This document shows, in pieces, positions 1-9,921 of a stretch of 64,000 nucleotides of DNA. Each line of letters starts with the position of its first letter. Position 1 is the stretch's first letter. The notes beneath the pieces were generated by a model that was given only the letters and a program-made list of their open reading frames with translations, did no database searches and was not told where the DNA came from. Made by a program: the position numbers and the translations under genes. Source of the stretch: Polyangiaceae bacterium (GTDB taxonomy: Bacteria > Myxococcota_A > Polyangia > Polyangiales > Polyangiaceae); assembly GCA_025936045.1 (NCBI GenBank), contig JAICUB010000003.1:62001-126000 (forward strand). Direction: 5' to 3'.

Positions 1-540
1 TTTCGGCGTGCCGAGCGTCGGTGTGTCGGTGATGCCGGCCGGACATGTCCATCCTGTCGAGCCCGTCCCGGCGCCGCCGCCAGCGGCCATCCCCGCCGTA
101 CCGGCGCCTGCACCGCCACCCGCGCTGCCGCCCATGCCGCCCATCGGCGCGCCGCCACCTCCACCGACACCCGATCCACCCGTGGCCCCTCCAGCCGTGC
201 CTCCGGCACCGCCCGCGGCCCCCGCTCCACCGCTGCCGCCGCTCGCGGTCGCTCCGCTCGTGCCACCGCCGCCGGTTCCGCCGTTGCCTCCGGCGCTGAC
301 GGTTCCGCCGCTGCCCGCGTTCGCCTTCATCCCGGCCGTTCCAGCCGTCGAGCCTCCGGTACCGGTTCCGCCCTGGCCCGCCGACGTCGAGCCGCCCGTC
401 GTCGCGCCACTTCCACTGCTGCCGCCGTTGCCCGAGCCGCCGTCACCGGGTGAGTTCGACGATCCGCAAGCAGACGCCGTGAGCAGAGCTCCCGTGAGCA
501 CGAAAGCGAGTGAAAGAAACCGCTGACCTTCGAAGCGCAT
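1..540 (-). CDS. Gly-rich lipoprotein, N-terminal part (runs off window)
   Basis: The reading frame opens at ATG 540-538 and continues past the left edge, so only the N-terminal 180 residues are visible. It begins with a basic n-region, a hydrophobic stretch and the lipobox TASAC (Cys about residue 25), which indicates Sec export and lipid anchoring. After the Cys comes a long low-complexity Gly/Ser/Thr/Ala linker, a common tether in myxobacterial surface enzymes. The globular domain lies outside the window, so the function is unknown. The proline-rich frame on the opposite strand is only its antisense image. The start is the only ATG next to a signal peptide; no strong ribosome site precedes it. 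Confidence 0.75.
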   Translation of the reverse strand, partial: MRFEGQRFLSLAFVLTGALLTASACGSSNSPGDGGSGNGGSSGSGATTGGSTSAGQGGTGTGGSTAGTAGMKANAGSGGTVSAGGNGGTGGGGTSGATASGGSGGAGAAGGAGGTAGGATGGSGVGGGGGAPMGGMGGSAGGGAGAGTAGMAAGGGAGTGSTGWTCPAGITDTPTLGTPK

Positions 541-636: not shown

Positions 637-2493
637 TCACCGTGTCGCGCAATATTTCCGCCACACGGTCCGGTACACGCTCTCGAGGTTGCGAGCGAAG
701 CGCGGCACGTCGCCGAGCGGCGATTGTTCGAGACGAGCGCGGAGTCCGCGGCGGAGCTCGGCTAGCCGCTCGAGATCGCGTGCGAGCGAGGCGGCCGTCT
801 CGACGAACTCGTCTTCAGTGTGCGCCACGAGCTCCGGAAGTCCCAGATTTCCAGCCATGCACGCGCCCGCACGCTGGAGCGCGCGCGGACCGCTCAGCGT
901 GACGACCGGCACGCCCATCCACGCCGCATCGAGCGTCGTCGTCGCGCCGTTGTACGGAAAGCTGTCGAGACCGAGGTCGATCCGCTGGTAGCGCTCGAGG
1001 TACTCGCGGCGCGAGGTTCTTCCGACGAACTCGAGGCGCTCACTCTGCACGCCCTCGCGAGCGAAGAGCGCGCGGAGTCGTTCGCGCACGTGGGCTTCGC
1101 CCGAGAGCAGCAGGCGTGAGCGCGGCACCTCGCGGAGCACGCGCGCCCACAGCCGAAATACGCCGTCGTGGAGCTTGCGGAACGCATTGAGACAACCGAA
1201 CGTGACGAAGCCTGAAGCGAGCGCGGGCAACGCCGTCAGCGCGGGCTCGGTCGCCAACGCTGAGTAGCACCACAGCGTCTCGGGCAAATGAATGGACGCC
1301 TCCGAGTACACGCCGAGATCGACATCCGGCGGATCGACGAAAGGGTCCGTGAGGCGATAGTCGATCGCGGTGAGGCCCGTCGTCCCCGGATAGCCGAGCC
1401 AACTCAACTGAACGGGCGCGGGGCGACGAGCAAAAAGGCCAAGCCGGCCGCCGGGGCTATGCAGCGCAAGATCCACGAGGATATCGATGCCGTCCTCGCG
1501 GACGATCTCGGCCGCTCGAACGTCGTCGATGCGTCGAATGTCCGAGTAGCGATCGCCCGCGAAAGAGCGATACCACTCCGTCACGCCATCCGGACGATCG
1601 ACCGAGGAATAGAGGAACGTCGCGTACATGGATTGATCGTGCTGCTCGAACAGCGGCACCAAAAACTGCTGCAGCGCGTGCGCGTGAAAATCCGGCGAGA
1701 CGTACCCGATTCGCAAGCGTCGCTCGGGCTGCTTGTCGTTCGGAGCCGGCCGAACCTGCTCTCGGAGCGGCTCGGCGTGTCGCTCGGCCCACGCGCGCGC
1801 TTCCCTCGAGATCGCGCCGTCATCGTGTTCCGGGCTCGCAAGCATCGCCACGATGAGACTGCTGTGAACGGCCTCGTCCGCAGGGTTCAGCTCGACGGCA
1901 CGGCGGTAGCTCGCGATCGCCGCCGCTTTCTCGCCGCTGCTGTCGAGCACGTCCGCGAGTTGCCGGTGCGCGGACGCGCTCTCCGGTGCGAGCTCGAGCG
2001 CGCGCTTTGCATGAAACAACGCGTCCTCGGGACGATTGAGCTGACGCAAGAGCCAAGATAGCGCCACGCGGAGCCGCGGCCCCTCGGCGCCACGCGCCAC
2101 CGCGTCTTCGAGCAGCGAAAGCGCTTGCGGGTACACGCCCGCTTCGGCCAGCGTCACCGCGAGGTTCAGACGAGCGTCCGGGAAATCGGGCAGAAACTCG
2201 AGAATGCGCCCGAAGGCTTCGGCCGCGACGTCCAAGCGACCGAGCGCCCGGTACGTTTCTCCCAAGTTCGTGAGGTACGTCGGGTTCGCCTCGACGGCGA
2301 CGGCGCGTTCGAAGTAGCGGCACGCCTCTTCGAGCCGGCCCCGCTCGTGAAGGAGCAGGCCGAGCGCAGAGAGCGCCCGATGATGGTGCGCGTTACGCGA
2401 GATGAGCTTGCGATAGATCGACTCCGCTTCTCCGCCGCGTCCGATCTCGTGGAGCCGGAGGGCGCGTTCGAGCGGATCCTGCCCGGCTGTCAG
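637..2493 (-). CDS. TPR-containing GT41 (SPINDLY/OGT-like) glycosyltransferase
   Basis: The N-terminal part (to about residue 240) holds several TPR units; the rest is a glycosyltransferase 41 domain, with IGYVSPDFHAH near residue 262 and SFPYNGATTTLDAAWMGVPV further on. The family transfers a sugar (GlcNAc, or fucose in SPINDLY) to Ser/Thr of proteins; the acceptor here is unknown. No ATG, GTG or TTG in this frame precedes the TPR region; the first such codon is an internal TTG at 2265 that would cut a TPR. The likely start is CTG 2493-2491, six bases after GGAG, overlapping the upstream stop as CTGA. That gives 618 residues and a normal TPR start. It is probably translationally coupled to the GH43-like gene. 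A broken C-terminal copy lies at 8146-8662. Confidence 0.85.
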   Translation of the reverse strand: MTAGQDPLERALRLHEIGRGGEAESIYRKLISRNAHHHRALSALGLLLHERGRLEEACRYFERAVAVEANPTYLTNLGETYRALGRLDVAAEAFGRILEFLPDFPDARLNLAVTLAEAGVYPQALSLLEDAVARGAEGPRLRVALSWLLRQLNRPEDALFHAKRALELAPESASAHRQLADVLDSSGEKAAAIASYRRAVELNPADEAVHSSLIVAMLASPEHDDGAISREARAWAERHAEPLREQVRPAPNDKQPERRLRIGYVSPDFHAHALQQFLVPLFEQHDQSMYATFLYSSVDRPDGVTEWYRSFAGDRYSDIRRIDDVRAAEIVREDGIDILVDLALHSPGGRLGLFARRPAPVQLSWLGYPGTTGLTAIDYRLTDPFVDPPDVDLGVYSEASIHLPETLWCYSALATEPALTALPALASGFVTFGCLNAFRKLHDGVFRLWARVLREVPRSRLLLSGEAHVRERLRALFAREGVQSERLEFVGRTSRREYLERYQRIDLGLDSFPYNGATTTLDAAWMGVPVVTLSGPRALQRAGACMAGNLGLPELVAHTEDEFVETAASLARDLERLAELRRGLRARLEQSPLGDVPRFARNLESVYRTVWRKYCATR

Positions 2494-3956
2494 GGCGGGC
2501 TCCAGGTCCCCGCGCCTACGTCGAGCTTCCAGCCGTCGAGGTACTGAGGAAGCCCGATAGCGGTTCCGGTAAATACGAGCGGCTGAAAAACGTAGGTCGC
2601 GAGGTAGTTATGAACGCCGGGAGCGGTCGTGTCTTGATTGCCGTCCCAATGGTCACCCCAATACACATAGGTGGTCCCAGTCGTACCGGCGACGGGGATG
2701 ACCCACGTGCTCTGAGACAGCCATGTGCGCTGATCAGAAGTTTGGTCGGTCGGATCCACCACGGGCGCGAGATAGCCCTGATACGTCCACGGTCCGGTCA
2801 TCGCCGGCGCCGTCGAGTAGAAGTTGTTGTTGGCGCGCCAGCCCGTTTTGTACGAACCAATCCAATAGTACGTATTGCCCGCCTTGAAGACAGTGGGCGA
2901 CTCCGAGCCGCCAGAATCGCCGTTCACGGCCGAATAGCTTTTGTCACTCACCCAACTATGGCAGTCAGCCGCGAGCGTATAAACGTGTCCGCTCTCCGTG
3001 ACGACGTACGCGTTGTCCCCGTCGGAGAGGGCGCTCATGTCGCTGTGCTCGGCTTTCGCGCCTGCGGAGCTGAGCAGGAGTCCCATATAGGTGTAGTCGC
3101 CGTTCACGGTGGGCGACGTTGCGTAAACGACTTCTCGATCCGTCGAGTAGTCTTCGGACGCCGCGTGCGCGAAGAGCACGAACTCGCCCGTGCTCGGACA
3201 TTTGACGATGTGAGGCCGCTCGCCCTTCCGATTGGGACCGAGCTCGCTCTTGGCCGGCTGTTGAGGCAAGATCATCTTCTCCCATTTCCAGGTCGCGAGA
3301 TCCTTCGACGAGTACATGGAGAAGCCGTTGAAGTCGTTGCTCGTCGTGGTGCTCAAGAAGTACTCGCCATGGAGGTAGTACGTGTCACCCTCCTTGATGG
3401 TGCCGCCACCGTGCGCATTGACGCGGTCCCCCTTGTCGTCGAGGAAGTTGATGCCGGTGGCGAGCGGGCCGGAGAACGTAGCGATGGGGCCCGACGCCGA
3501 TTGCCCCGCCGTACCGCCGCTCGTGCTGCCGCCCGTTCCGCCGATCCCGCCCGTAGCGCGCCCGCCGGCCGCCGAGCTCCCGCCACGTCCGGCTGCCGCT
3601 TTACCGCCGCTTCCCGCCGAGCCCGCGCGCATTCCACCGCTGCCTGCAAGCGCACCGCCGGCGCTCATCGCTTGCCCCGCAGCACTGCCGCCCACGGACA
3701 CGCTACTGCCCCCCAGGCCGTCGCCGGATCCGCCCGTTGACGAGCTCGAGCCGCCTCTCCCCGCCACGCCCGATCCCTCGCCCGCCCGCCCCGATGCGCC
3801 ATTGCCGCCGGTTCCGGATCCACCGGTGGCGAGCACGCCACCCGCGCCGTTGCCGCCGTGAGCGTCACCAGGCGGAGTCGAATGATCGCTCGGTCCCGAA
3901 CAGGCGAAAGCCGACAGCGCTCCGAGCCCGAGACCGATCAACGTGCGTGCGCGCAT
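2490..3956 (-). CDS. Secreted GH43-like five-bladed propeller glycosidase, lipoprotein
   Basis: The start is ATG 3956, giving a 488-residue lipoprotein: a signal peptide ending in a Cys after SAFA, then a Gly/Ser/Ala linker of roughly 130 residues, then a catalytic-type domain. That domain shows repeats typical of family-43 beta-propellers, including HGGGTIKEGDTYYLHGEYF, a SSKDLATWKWEK blade, ERPHIVKCPSTGEFVLFAH, and HSDMSALSDGDNAYVVTES. These resemble exo-galactanase/arabinanase-type GH43 members. It probably trims plant or microbial polysaccharide at the cell surface; the substrate cannot be read from sequence. An upstream in-frame ATG (4121) would add a non-signal extension and is rejected. 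It lies just upstream of, and overlaps by four bases, the GT41 gene. Confidence 0.8.
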   Translation of the reverse strand: MRARTLIGLGLGALSAFACSGPSDHSTPPGDAHGGNGAGGVLATGGSGTGGNGASGRAGEGSGVAGRGGSSSSTGGSGDGLGGSSVSVGGSAAGQAMSAGGALAGSGGMRAGSAGSGGKAAAGRGGSSAAGGRATGGIGGTGGSTSGGTAGQSASGPIATFSGPLATGINFLDDKGDRVNAHGGGTIKEGDTYYLHGEYFLSTTTSNDFNGFSMYSSKDLATWKWEKMILPQQPAKSELGPNRKGERPHIVKCPSTGEFVLFAHAASEDYSTDREVVYATSPTVNGDYTYMGLLLSSAGAKAEHSDMSALSDGDNAYVVTESGHVYTLAADCHSWVSDKSYSAVNGDSGGSESPTVFKAGNTYYWIGSYKTGWRANNNFYSTAPAMTGPWTYQGYLAPVVDPTDQTSDQRTWLSQSTWVIPVAGTTGTTYVYWGDHWDGNQDTTAPGVHNYLATYVFQPLVFTGTAIGLPQYLDGWKLDVGAGTWSPP

Positions 3957-4097
3957 AGGAACCTGTGACCTTTGTACCCGATTTGGGATCAATTCCCGCG
4001 GCGGCGGAGCAACTCTCTGGAATTGCATGATTTCGTTCGCGGCGACGCGGGCGTCGTGCGCGAGCAGGACCGCTCTTGCCCTCCACGTTCGCGGAGT

Positions 4098-4727
4098 ATG
4101 CTCTCGCCTAACAACATGCATCGTAGCTTCAAGGGAGCGGTGGGTCGATCAGCGCTGCCGCTTCTCATCGCGGCTGTTTCTTTGCAGTGCAGCGGGTCTT
4201 CGCGCGAGTTCCACAAGCCGGTCGAAAGGACCGGGGGCGCAGGGGGCATCGCTGCGGGTGCCGGAACGGCCGGGAGCAGCTTCGCCCGCTCGCCTAGCGG
4301 TGGCTCGGGCGCTAGGCTCGGGGTGGTGCCGGCGGGACGGCTGCGAATCCCGGCGCGGGCGGCACTTCAGCGCGGGGCGGCACTTCGGACGCGGGCGGCA
4401 CGAGCGGTACCAGCGGGGACGCGGGTCAATCAGCCGGTGGTAGCAGCGCGGACGGAGGAAAAGGCGGGAGCGGGGGGAAGGGCGGCACCTCGGCCGCAAT
4501 ACGGCGGCCTCTTCGTCAATAACCCTCCCGCGACGGGCCCGAAGCTCTTGAAGAACGTCACTTTCGAAGACGGGAACAGACCGAACGATGCGGTGTGTAC
4601 GGGAGCGATCACCGGCACGGGCGTCTACGCGCCCGACGCGAAGGTCGACGCCAACTGCGGCATCACGACGTGCTCGACGCCGAGCGCGTCGTGCGGCTCG
4701 ACGCTCATGTGGACGAACCCGGGTTGA
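4098..4727 (+). pseudogene. Frameshifted Gly-rich lipoprotein remnant
   Basis: A lipoprotein start is clear (ATG 4098 or 4116, signal segment ending LIAAVSLQCSG), followed by a Gly-rich linker. Near 4320 the frame changes: the Gly/Thr-rich linker continues in the next frame to about 4490, while the original frame becomes Arg/Ala-rich and then recovers a normal-looking domain (GLFVNNPPATGPKLLKNV onward) after 4500. That domain stops abruptly at 4727, just before the next gene, so the 3' end may also be lost. Two compensating frameshifts in a repeat-rich linker are the simplest explanation; sequencing error is possible. No enzymatic family is recognised. Confidence 0.6.
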
Positions 4728-6427: not shown

Positions 6428-8026
6428 CTACGGCACCCAAACTTCGCGCGGGAGCAGCTGCTGCATCGCCCTGAAGTGCGCTTCCGCGACGGGTAACTCG
6501 AGCGACGCGAGCGGATTCCGATCGTCGGTGATGACGGGGCCGCTCGGCACTTGCTTCAGCACTTCCCAACTCTGGAACGAACGCTGGACCTCTTCGCAGG
6601 TTCGATTTTCGAAGGTCGCGTTCGAAGGGATCTCGAAGTCGATCGCCTCGTCCGCCGCGAAGAAGGCGAGATTCCCCGGCTCGTCGGCGTTTTCGGCAAG
6701 GGCGCTGTCCCAAAACACGCGCACGACCGGAAACACCGCTCGGAGCGTACGCAGCACGGCGTAGCTCGCGTCCACGTGAGGCCCTGCGCGAAACCCCGCG
6801 AAGTTCAACGCCAAGAGCCCGTGCGCGTTCAACGTTGCGTGAATCCGGCGTACCAGCTCGAGCGACAAGAGATGCTCCGGCGTCGTCCCACCCGTAAAGG
6901 TGTCGTGAATGATCAAATCGTATTTTTTCGGCGTACGTTGGAGCAGCGTTCTAGCGTCCTCGACATAGACGGCTCCGTTCGGCTCGAACCCGAAATACCG
7001 CTCGGCAAGACGAACGACCGCCGGATCGATCTCGACGACATCGACACGGATACTCTCCCGCTCCAGCACTCTTGCGACCGAGCCGATGCCGAGCCCCACT
7101 TGCAGCATATCTCGTGCATGGGGACGTGCAAAGCGGACCGCTTCGAGCAGATGCAGAAATGAAAAAGCGGCAGACTGATCGTGCGTGAATTGCGCGCCGA
7201 TTACGGAATGATCGGCCCGTAGCAGGCGAACGCCCCGCTTCGCGTCGTCAACGACCTCCGTCAACCCGTAGAGACTTTGGACGCTCTCGAGAACGCGCAC
7301 GCTCGGCGGCAGTGTCCGGTCAGGAGCACACCACGCCACAAAGGGCGGCACGAGCAATGCGCCCCAGAGCCGCACTGTGCCTGACGTTCCGACCAACGTT
7401 ACGCCGAGCAACGTCAGCACCGTAGCCGTCGTCGTGATGATCTCGTTCGTCCCGAAGCGTGGCACCAGCACGAAGCCGATCGCCAGCGTGCCGAGCAAGC
7501 TACCCACCGTGGACACTGCGTAAGCAGCCCCAGCACCTCGACCCGTTGCCGTGACGTCGCGAACCATGAGGCGAACCGCGATGGGACTCGTCGCGCCGAG
7601 GGCACAAAGCGCGGGGGCGAAGAGCAGCACGGCCGCTGCCAGCGGCCCCAAGCGCGGTCCCCAATCGCTCAACGCGGAGAGTGTGAAGCGCGCGTACCCG
7701 CGTTCGAGCCCGAGCAACATGCCCGCCGTCGTCACGGCAATGCCCATCACGCGAAGCGTCGGCCTCCGATCGATGAATCGCCCCCCGGCATAGTAGCCGG
7801 TCGCGAGCGATCCCAGCGTTACGGCTAGCAGCGCGGACCACACGAAGAGATTCACCCCGAACACAAGCGCGATCACGCGTGTACCCACGATTTCGATCGC
7901 CATGACCGCAGCGCCGGTAACGAATACGGTGCCGAGCAACGCGAGGCGGGATCGCGGCGTTGCGATCGCTATGGGCGTTTCAGCCGGGGTGGTCACGCTC
8001 GCAGCCTCGCACGATTGAGGCGGCAC
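6428..8026 (-). CDS. Fused MFS-like membrane / spermidine-synthase-like protein
   Basis: The N-terminal ~230 residues form multiple hydrophobic helices (for example LALLGTVFVTGAAVMAIEIV and ALLAVTLGSLATGYYAGG); the C-terminal part is a spermidine-synthase-type Rossmann domain with MLQVGLGIGSVARVLE, VDVVEIDPAVVRLA and DLIIHDTFTGG. This fusion family is common in Myxococcota and related bacteria; it is annotated as fused MFS/spermidine synthase, but its substrate is not established. The start used is GTG 8026. The first 390 bases of the coding sequence are duplicated almost exactly at 9529-9921. It is intact, unlike that copy. Confidence 0.8.
   Translation of the reverse strand: MPPQSCEAASVTTPAETPIAIATPRSRLALLGTVFVTGAAVMAIEIVGTRVIALVFGVNLFVWSALLAVTLGSLATGYYAGGRFIDRRPTLRVMGIAVTTAGMLLGLERGYARFTLSALSDWGPRLGPLAAAVLLFAPALCALGATSPIAVRLMVRDVTATGRGAGAAYAVSTVGSLLGTLAIGFVLVPRFGTNEIITTTATVLTLLGVTLVGTSGTVRLWGALLVPPFVAWCAPDRTLPPSVRVLESVQSLYGLTEVVDDAKRGVRLLRADHSVIGAQFTHDQSAAFSFLHLLEAVRFARPHARDMLQVGLGIGSVARVLERESIRVDVVEIDPAVVRLAERYFGFEPNGAVYVEDARTLLQRTPKKYDLIIHDTFTGGTTPEHLLSLELVRRIHATLNAHGLLALNFAGFRAGPHVDASYAVLRTLRAVFPVVRVFWDSALAENADEPGNLAFFAADEAIDFEIPSNATFENRTCEEVQRSFQSWEVLKQVPSGPVITDDRNPLASLELPVAEAHFRAMQQLLPREVWVP
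7622..8014 (-). repeat. Direct duplication, copy A (5' part of MFS/spermidine synthase gene)
   Basis: These 393 bases recur in the same orientation at 9529-9921 with only scattered substitutions and no indels (constant offset 1,907). The outer limits are sharp: sequences diverge immediately beyond position 8014/9921 and 7622/9529. The segment covers codons from near the start through the fourth or so membrane helix. No target-site duplication or transposase accompanies it, so it looks like a recombination or gene-duplication scar. Confidence 0.9.
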
Positions 8027-8145
8027 TGCACCGCAGGGTCATTCGATTCGGGCTCGAACGAGGGCTGGGTCGCCGATACCGACCCAGGTTTTCGGGTCAA
8101 CGGTGGCGGCGCAGCGAACGGAGTGACCGTCTTCTGAGTGGCCGT

Positions 8146-8662
8146 GCAGTAGTGCCGCCACGCCGTCCGGTAGACCGCCTCGAGATTGCGGACGAAGCGA
8201 GCCTCATCTCCCAAAGGCGATCCTTGGAGACGAGACCGGAGTCCACTGCGCAGCTCGCTCAAGCGGCCAAGGTCGGCCGCTAGCGTGCCTGCCATTTGGA
8301 CGAACTCGTCCTCGTTCGACGCCACGAGCTCGGAAAGACCGAGATTCGAGGCTACGCAGACGCCGGCCCGCTGCAGCGCCCGAGGTCCGGTCAGAGTGAC
8401 CACGGGCACGCCCATCCATGCGGCGTCCAGCGTCGTCGTGGCGCCGCCGTAAGGAAAACTATCGAGACCAACGTCGATCTGCCGGTAACGCTCGAGATAC
8501 GACCGGCGCGAGGTTCGCTCTGCGAAGTCCAAACGGTCGGCGTGAACTCCCTCTCGAGCGAACAACTGCCGCAGCCGATCGCGTGCGTATTCTTCTCCGG
8601 TGAGCACCATTCGACCCGGGCACTTCCCGCAAGACACGCGCCCAAAGCCGGAAGACGCCGTC
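8146..8662 (-). pseudogene. Fragment of a GT41 (SPINDLY/OGT-like) glycosyltransferase
   Basis: The translation matches the C-terminal third of the GT41 protein at 637-2493: DGVFRLWARVLREVP in one frame (8662 to about 8612), then the next frame from about 8607 with YLERYRQIDVGLDSFPYGG and AAWMGVPVVTL through to YRTAWRHYC (8146). The frame change plus loss of all TPR and most of the catalytic domain make it non-functional. The open frame continues to 7993, overlapping the start of the MFS/spermidine synthase gene with unrelated sequence. It is best read as a decayed paralogue left by a duplication. Confidence 0.8.
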
Positions 8663-8873
8663 GGATCTTCTCCGTACCAACCCAATCGCCGCGGGCGCTC
8701 GCCGTGGGACCAGCGAGCGAGCCTTTCGGGAAGGTCAGAAACTGCATTGCTAGCTCTTTCCGCGCTCGCGCGCATCAGGGTTACACGCGGCGAGCGTTGG
8801 CGGCTAGCCTGAGGTCGAGCACCGTGGGGCCGGCGTTCGAAACGAGCCATTCGACGCTCGCCGGAAAGTATTG

Positions 8874-9525: not shown

Positions 9526-9921
9526 TTAGAGCAGCACGACCACGGCCAGCGGCCCCAAGCGCGGTCCCCAATCGCTCAACGCGGAGAGCGTGAAGCGCGC
9601 GTACCCGCGTTCGAGCCCGAGCAACACGCCCGCCGCCGTCACGGCAATGCCCATCACGCGAAGCGTCGGCGTCCGATCGATGAACCGCCCCCCGGCATAG
9701 TAGCCGGTCGCGAGCGATCCCAGCGTTACGGCTAGCAGCGCGGACCACACGAAGAGATTCACGCCGAACGCGAGCGCGATGACACGCGTACCCACGATTT
9801 CGATCGCCATGACCGCAGCGCCGGTAACGAATACGGTGCCGAGGAGCGCGAGGCGGGATCGCGGCGTTGCGATCGCCATGGGCGTTTCAGCCGGGGTGGT
9901 CACGCTCGCAGCCTCGCACGA
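9526..9921 (-). pseudogene. Truncated MFS/spermidine synthase copy
   Basis: The frame encodes the first ~130 residues of the protein at 6428-8026 with a few substitutions and then hits TAA at 9528-9526, losing most of the membrane domain and the whole synthase domain. Upstream of 9921 the sequence is unrelated to the intact gene's upstream region, and the same frame stays open to about 10155 without recognisable content. It is non-functional as a transporter or synthase. Confidence 0.85.
9529..9921 (-). repeat. Direct duplication, copy B
   Basis: This is the second copy of the 393-base segment at 7622-8014, same orientation, 1,907 bases apart. The interval between the copies holds the GT41 fragment and the 205-aa hypothetical gene. 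Homologous recombination between the copies would delete that interval. Confidence 0.9.

Follow-up and report, generated by a model that had tools for sequence, protein, structure and literature searches.

CTG start codons and the coupling of neighboring genes through an NTGA overlap are both already known. In E. coli, output from CTG is quoted as 0.86% of that from AUG, and CTG is quoted as 0.024% of bacterial start codons (PMC11497404), while 2 of 61,358 ancestral AUG starts were found to have switched to CUG (PMC5622118); because CTG is thus weak and rare, the codon itself counts against a start that is proposed at it. The rep gene of the FIB replicon of F-like plasmids has a CTG start with a good ribosome-binding site, was mis-annotated at a downstream canonical start, and loses its expression when the CTG is changed to CTC; the CTG is said to hold expression low (PMC11983097). 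Rare start codons missed by gene callers are also found in sigR-rsrA of Streptomyces (GTC start) and in infC (ATT or ATC start), and in sigR (PMC5472188) and infC they set a low, IF3-sensitive expression. For coupled genes, NTGA (−4 nt) is the commonest geometry (PMC12548453), and in the majority of prokaryote groups most overlapping starts are preceded by SD-like motifs (PMC6728339).

We analyzed a 64,000-nucleotide stretch of a Polyangiaceae genome (positions 62,001 to 126,000 of contig JAICUB010000003.1; hereafter, the window), in which a TPR-GT41 glycosyltransferase gene (GT41; 637-2493, minus strand, 618 codons plus stop) lies directly behind a gene for a GH43-like secreted lipoprotein with a Gly-rich linker (GH43; 2490-3956, minus strand, 488 codons). 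Pfam matches, orthologues and codon signal identify both as real protein-coding genes. GT41 matches PF13844 (E-value 9.1e-50; 169.8 bits against a curated cut-off of 25), with TPR families covering its N-terminal part from about residue 22, and GH43 matches PF04616 (E-value 1.4e-10; 41.4 bits against a curated cut-off of 32.2). The candidate CTG start of GT41 (2493-2491) overlaps the TGA stop of GH43 (2492-2490) on the same strand, forming the 4-nt overlap CTGA (2490-2493) in the −4 arrangement. A Shine-Dalgarno-like GGAG (2500-2503, minus strand), contained in the GH43 codons TGG AGC, ends 6 nt before the CTG, so that the minus strand reads GGGGACCT, GGAG (2503-2500), CCCGCC (2499-2494), CTG (2493-2491) and A (2490). 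The coordinates, frames and spacing of CTGA and GGAG given in the initial annotation were thus confirmed on the sequence. RNA structure around the GT41 start was indistinguishable from that of shuffled sequences (z = −0.05). The 16S tail carrying the anti-SD was not seen; the one match to the 16S-tail pattern (C87) is, by Rfam, no rRNA.

The junction shares features with each of the described systems. Its stop/start geometry is identical to that of NTGA termination-reinitiation (PMC6728339, PMC12548453), and its SD-like motif likewise lies inside the upstream gene; however, NTGA coupling is described in the literature with ATGA, whereas GH43-GT41 has CTGA and its coupling is putative. Like FIB rep, GT41 combines a putative CTG start with a ribosome-binding site and a downstream canonical codon that invites mis-annotation, but the FIB start is experimentally proven, and an overlap with an upstream stop is not described in the available portion of that report (PMC11983097). 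In contrast to the proposed GT41 start, the rare starts of sigR-rsrA and infC use different codons and are conserved across species, and that of sigR belongs to the upstream gene (PMC5472188) whereas that of GT41 belongs to the downstream one. We found no described case of CTGA coupling in the open-access literature, which is weak evidence of absence.

The GT41 frame is open from 2607, just inside a closing TAA (2608-2610, minus strand), down to its stop at 637. The only NTG codons in this frame before the TPRs are CTG 2532, CTG 2505 and CTG 2493, and the first canonical in-frame start is TTG 2265 (2263-2265, minus strand); the initial annotation was therefore correct that no in-frame ATG, GTG or TTG precedes the TPR region. 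No canonical start fits the conserved GT41 N-terminus. The 76 strongly coding codons that precede the TTG are the feature of the junction that is unlikely by chance (p about 0.01, assuming 5.8% ATG, GTG and TTG together per codon).

To place the N-terminus, we compared GT41 with its orthologues from G033 (69% identical), G001 (64%) and G049 (64%; PMCK01000419.1, a MAG titled Myxococcales bacterium). One of these three relatives belongs to the same genus, and the other two represent other genera of the family. More distant homologues differ at their N-termini and were left out of the start placement. The N-terminal region aligns without gaps, as (M)TAGQDPLERALRL in the window, MKVSQDPIESAQDL in G049, MKARKASQDLLERALRL in G033 and MKKPKTSRERLQRALEL in G001. 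CTG 2493 stands exactly opposite the ATG of G049, and the starts of G033 (ATG) and G001 (TTG) lie three codons upstream of it; CTG as such is not conserved. Orthologues with an ATG elsewhere, which the initial annotation had said would speak against CTG 2493, were looked for in G049, G033 and G001, and their starts leave the CTG standing. The orthologous frames are closed 13 (G049), 21 (G033) and 8 (G001) codons upstream of their starts, so the GT41 N-terminus is bounded and little further extension is possible.

Codon usage was evaluated with a start-agnostic score, for which long frames of this genome served as the training set. The score places the onset of GT41 coding at 2508, or at 2511 with a larger training set. 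The signal leaves the GH43 frame and enters that of GT41 within 2517-2487, at about 2510-2490. Scored in steps of 30 bases, the GH43 frame gives +4.8, +1.1 and +5.6 before it drops; the GT41 frame stays below or close to zero as far as 2517 and, with one exception, is positive from 2487 onward. Two independent lines, the codon-usage switch and the orthologue alignment, thus provide good support for CTG 2493 as the predicted start of GT41.

We assessed how unusual such a junction is in 1.45 Mb of this genome (about 23% of it; 1,137 called genes). Outside overlap pairs, 321 of 591 TGA stops (54%) are preceded by C, so a CTGA overlap comes cheaply by chance. CTGA geometry alone is therefore weak evidence, being the default at TGA stops in a genome of 67-69% GC; the likeness to ATGA coupling drawn in the initial annotation holds for the geometry but counts for less than was supposed there. 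Among 190 pairs with the second gene in the overlap frame, the base before TGA is G in 74, A in 62, C in 42 and T in 12, so CTGA is under-represented at junctions that require a start. The start base of the NTGA pairs in this genome is nearly always A or G, unlike that of GH43-GT41. Of the 42 CTGA-frame pairs, 38 offer a canonical start no more than 60 nt away, and three of the remaining four have one slightly farther on (GTG +69, ATG +96 and ATG +63), leaving GH43-GT41 as the only one without a plausible canonical start in the 1.45 Mb. CTGA starts as a genome-wide habit are ruled out by the plausible canonical starts of the other 41 pairs in the 1.45 Mb, which counts against the proposed GT41 start. 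A GGAG 5-8 nt upstream accompanies 11.8% of predicted ATG starts, compared with 4.1% (4 of 97) for CTGA stops and 1.9% for coding positions chosen at random; the spacing is supportive of the CTG start and does not decide it.

A test for genes whose coding signal begins before their first canonical start, applied to the same 1.45 Mb, returned GT41 as the strongest non-repetitive case. The first canonical start lies at least 75 codons past the coding onset in only 4 of 736 well-scored genes, and the listed late-start candidates, judged by eye, mostly look like wrong-frame calls. As a positive control, the test recovered the programmed frameshift of prfB (release factor 2), which lies in the window at about 57558-58613 on the minus strand and carries the classic programmed +1 frameshift site GGGGGTCTCTTTGAC.

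The GH43 orthologues in G004 (79% identical) and G049 (73%) have no GT41 gene behind them, the GH43 and GT41 genes of G049 lying on separate contigs; the GT41 gene of G001 lies 24 nt after a different secreted protein gene. Conservation of the overlap in relatives, which the initial annotation had proposed as a check, is hence absent, GH43 and GT41 orthologues not being neighbors in the relatives examined, and the junction looks lineage-specific, with the overlap formed there. The GH43 C-terminus (...LDVGAGTWSPP*) compares with ...LDVGAGTWSE* in G004 and ...LDVGLGTWQ* in G049; truncation or chimerism of GH43 is ruled out by these orthologues, which end at most two residues from the same point. 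GT41 would have come to sit directly behind GH43 in this lineage, its original start having been replaced at the junction or, alternatively, converted from ATG through a single substitution. Such an ATG-to-CTG change would be silent in GH43 (CCA to CCC, Pro), and we infer that the simplest route led from an ancestral ATGA through this A-to-C substitution.

Taken with the published behavior of NTGA overlaps, the reading best supported is reinitiation by ribosomes that terminate at the TGA, and we consider it probable that GT41 is translated from CTG 2493-2491 in this way, coupled to GH43. Ribosomes finishing GH43 at the overlapping TGA, positioned by the GGAG, would restart one base back, and the CTG would be decoded as Met by initiator tRNA. 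With a start as weak as CTG, GT41 would be made in small amounts and in dependence on the upstream gene; a low output would fit an enzyme. It is distinctly unlikely that the CTG has been retained on purpose, in that termination-reinitiation relaxes start-codon choice, an overlapping CUG outperforms a free-standing one, and a low GT41 dose is tied to the output of the GH43 lipoprotein as its possible substrate.

About a quarter of the probability goes to two rivals combined, an incorrect base at 2493 and a start lost only very recently. The first, a consensus error or minority strain variant at a true ATG, GTG or TTG of an ordinary NTGA overlap, is unlikely. In its favor, the assembly consists of 87 contigs and is 86.6% complete, one base would restore the ordinary overlap exactly where G049 has ATG, and the rarity of CTG starts means that errors could compete with them even at a low rate. 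Against it, the contig is 231 kb long, the codon signals and the two proteins on both sides of the site are undamaged, and there is no sign of local error. Rescue of a canonical start by an indel is ruled out, since all frames lack ATG, GTG and TTG from 2649 to 2323, so that a nearby one-base indel error would uncover none either. It is likewise unlikely that the start was recently lost and that GT41 is a young pseudogene or nearly silent. A decayed, frameshifted GT41 copy 5.5 kb away (7993-8850) and local duplications show a neighborhood that tolerates broken copies, but the 618 codons of GT41 are intact, and GGAG with CTG is not a null start. The GT41 branch (0.33) does not exceed in length the branches of G049 (0.33) and G001 (0.39), two of the three orthologues, and differences are concentrated at third codon positions, a normal pattern; both observations indicate purifying selection until recently.

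Initiation at the in-frame CTG 2505-2503 (minus strand), four codons upstream, is very unlikely. It would give a length fitting G033 and G001, whose starts lie three codons upstream of 2493, and an AGG stands 9 nt before it; however, the conserved Thr-Trp codons ACC TGG of GH43 account for it and carry the same CTG in G004 with no GT41 behind, and the nearest G-rich stretch is one nucleotide off. Even less probable is translation from the internal TTG 2265 with the upstream stretch untranslated in the GT41 frame. This first canonical codon is probably what a gene caller would choose, but it is poorly placed, without a Shine-Dalgarno and inside a TPR helix. The stretch of 76 codons ahead of it shows codon signal, includes residues matched by TPR families in Pfam and aligns to the orthologues (about 51-61% over the first 85 columns), so that a start at the TTG would lose 76 conserved residues and begin inside a TPR. 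A −1 ribosomal frameshift fusing GH43 and GT41 would agree with the relative frames at the stop and can be practically dismissed, as CCG CCC TGA offers no good −1 re-pairing, the product would combine a lipoprotein that is exported with a TPR-GT41 enzyme that is expected to be cytoplasmic, and the orthologues are separate genes.

The neighborhood provided further observations. The decayed GT41 copy (minus strand) is 72% identical to the intact one over the last 158 residues. A membrane-protein gene at 6428-8026 (minus strand), with a spermidine-synthase-like C-terminus judged from sequence only, has a truncated near-copy at about 9526-9903 (minus strand); this near-copy and the GT41 fragment suggest local tandem duplication. 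GT41 genes adjoin secreted, often Gly/Ser/Thr-rich lipoproteins in the window (1-540, 2490-3956) and in G001, G026 and G155. These lipoproteins could be GT41 substrates, or the adjacency could be due to chance; Gly/Ser/Thr/Ala-rich proteins account for 66 of the 1,137 genes in this genome. A lipoprotein-like gene elsewhere, at 2668-4189 of the reverse complement of G000:C11 (L098, minus strand), has its LAGC lipobox and mature part in different frames, owing to a frameshift, an error or a pseudogene.

These results support well an isolated, credible and well-localized CTG start in an NTGA overlap, which is rare, non-conserved and no general practice of this genome. Being one non-conserved example from an uncultured genome, it has modest general weight. 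Genes starting at CTG are normally mis-annotated at a downstream start, which here costs 76 residues, about two TPRs. If real, the GH43-GT41 pair would provide a natural test of whether reinitiating ribosomes tolerate starts that fresh initiation rejects.
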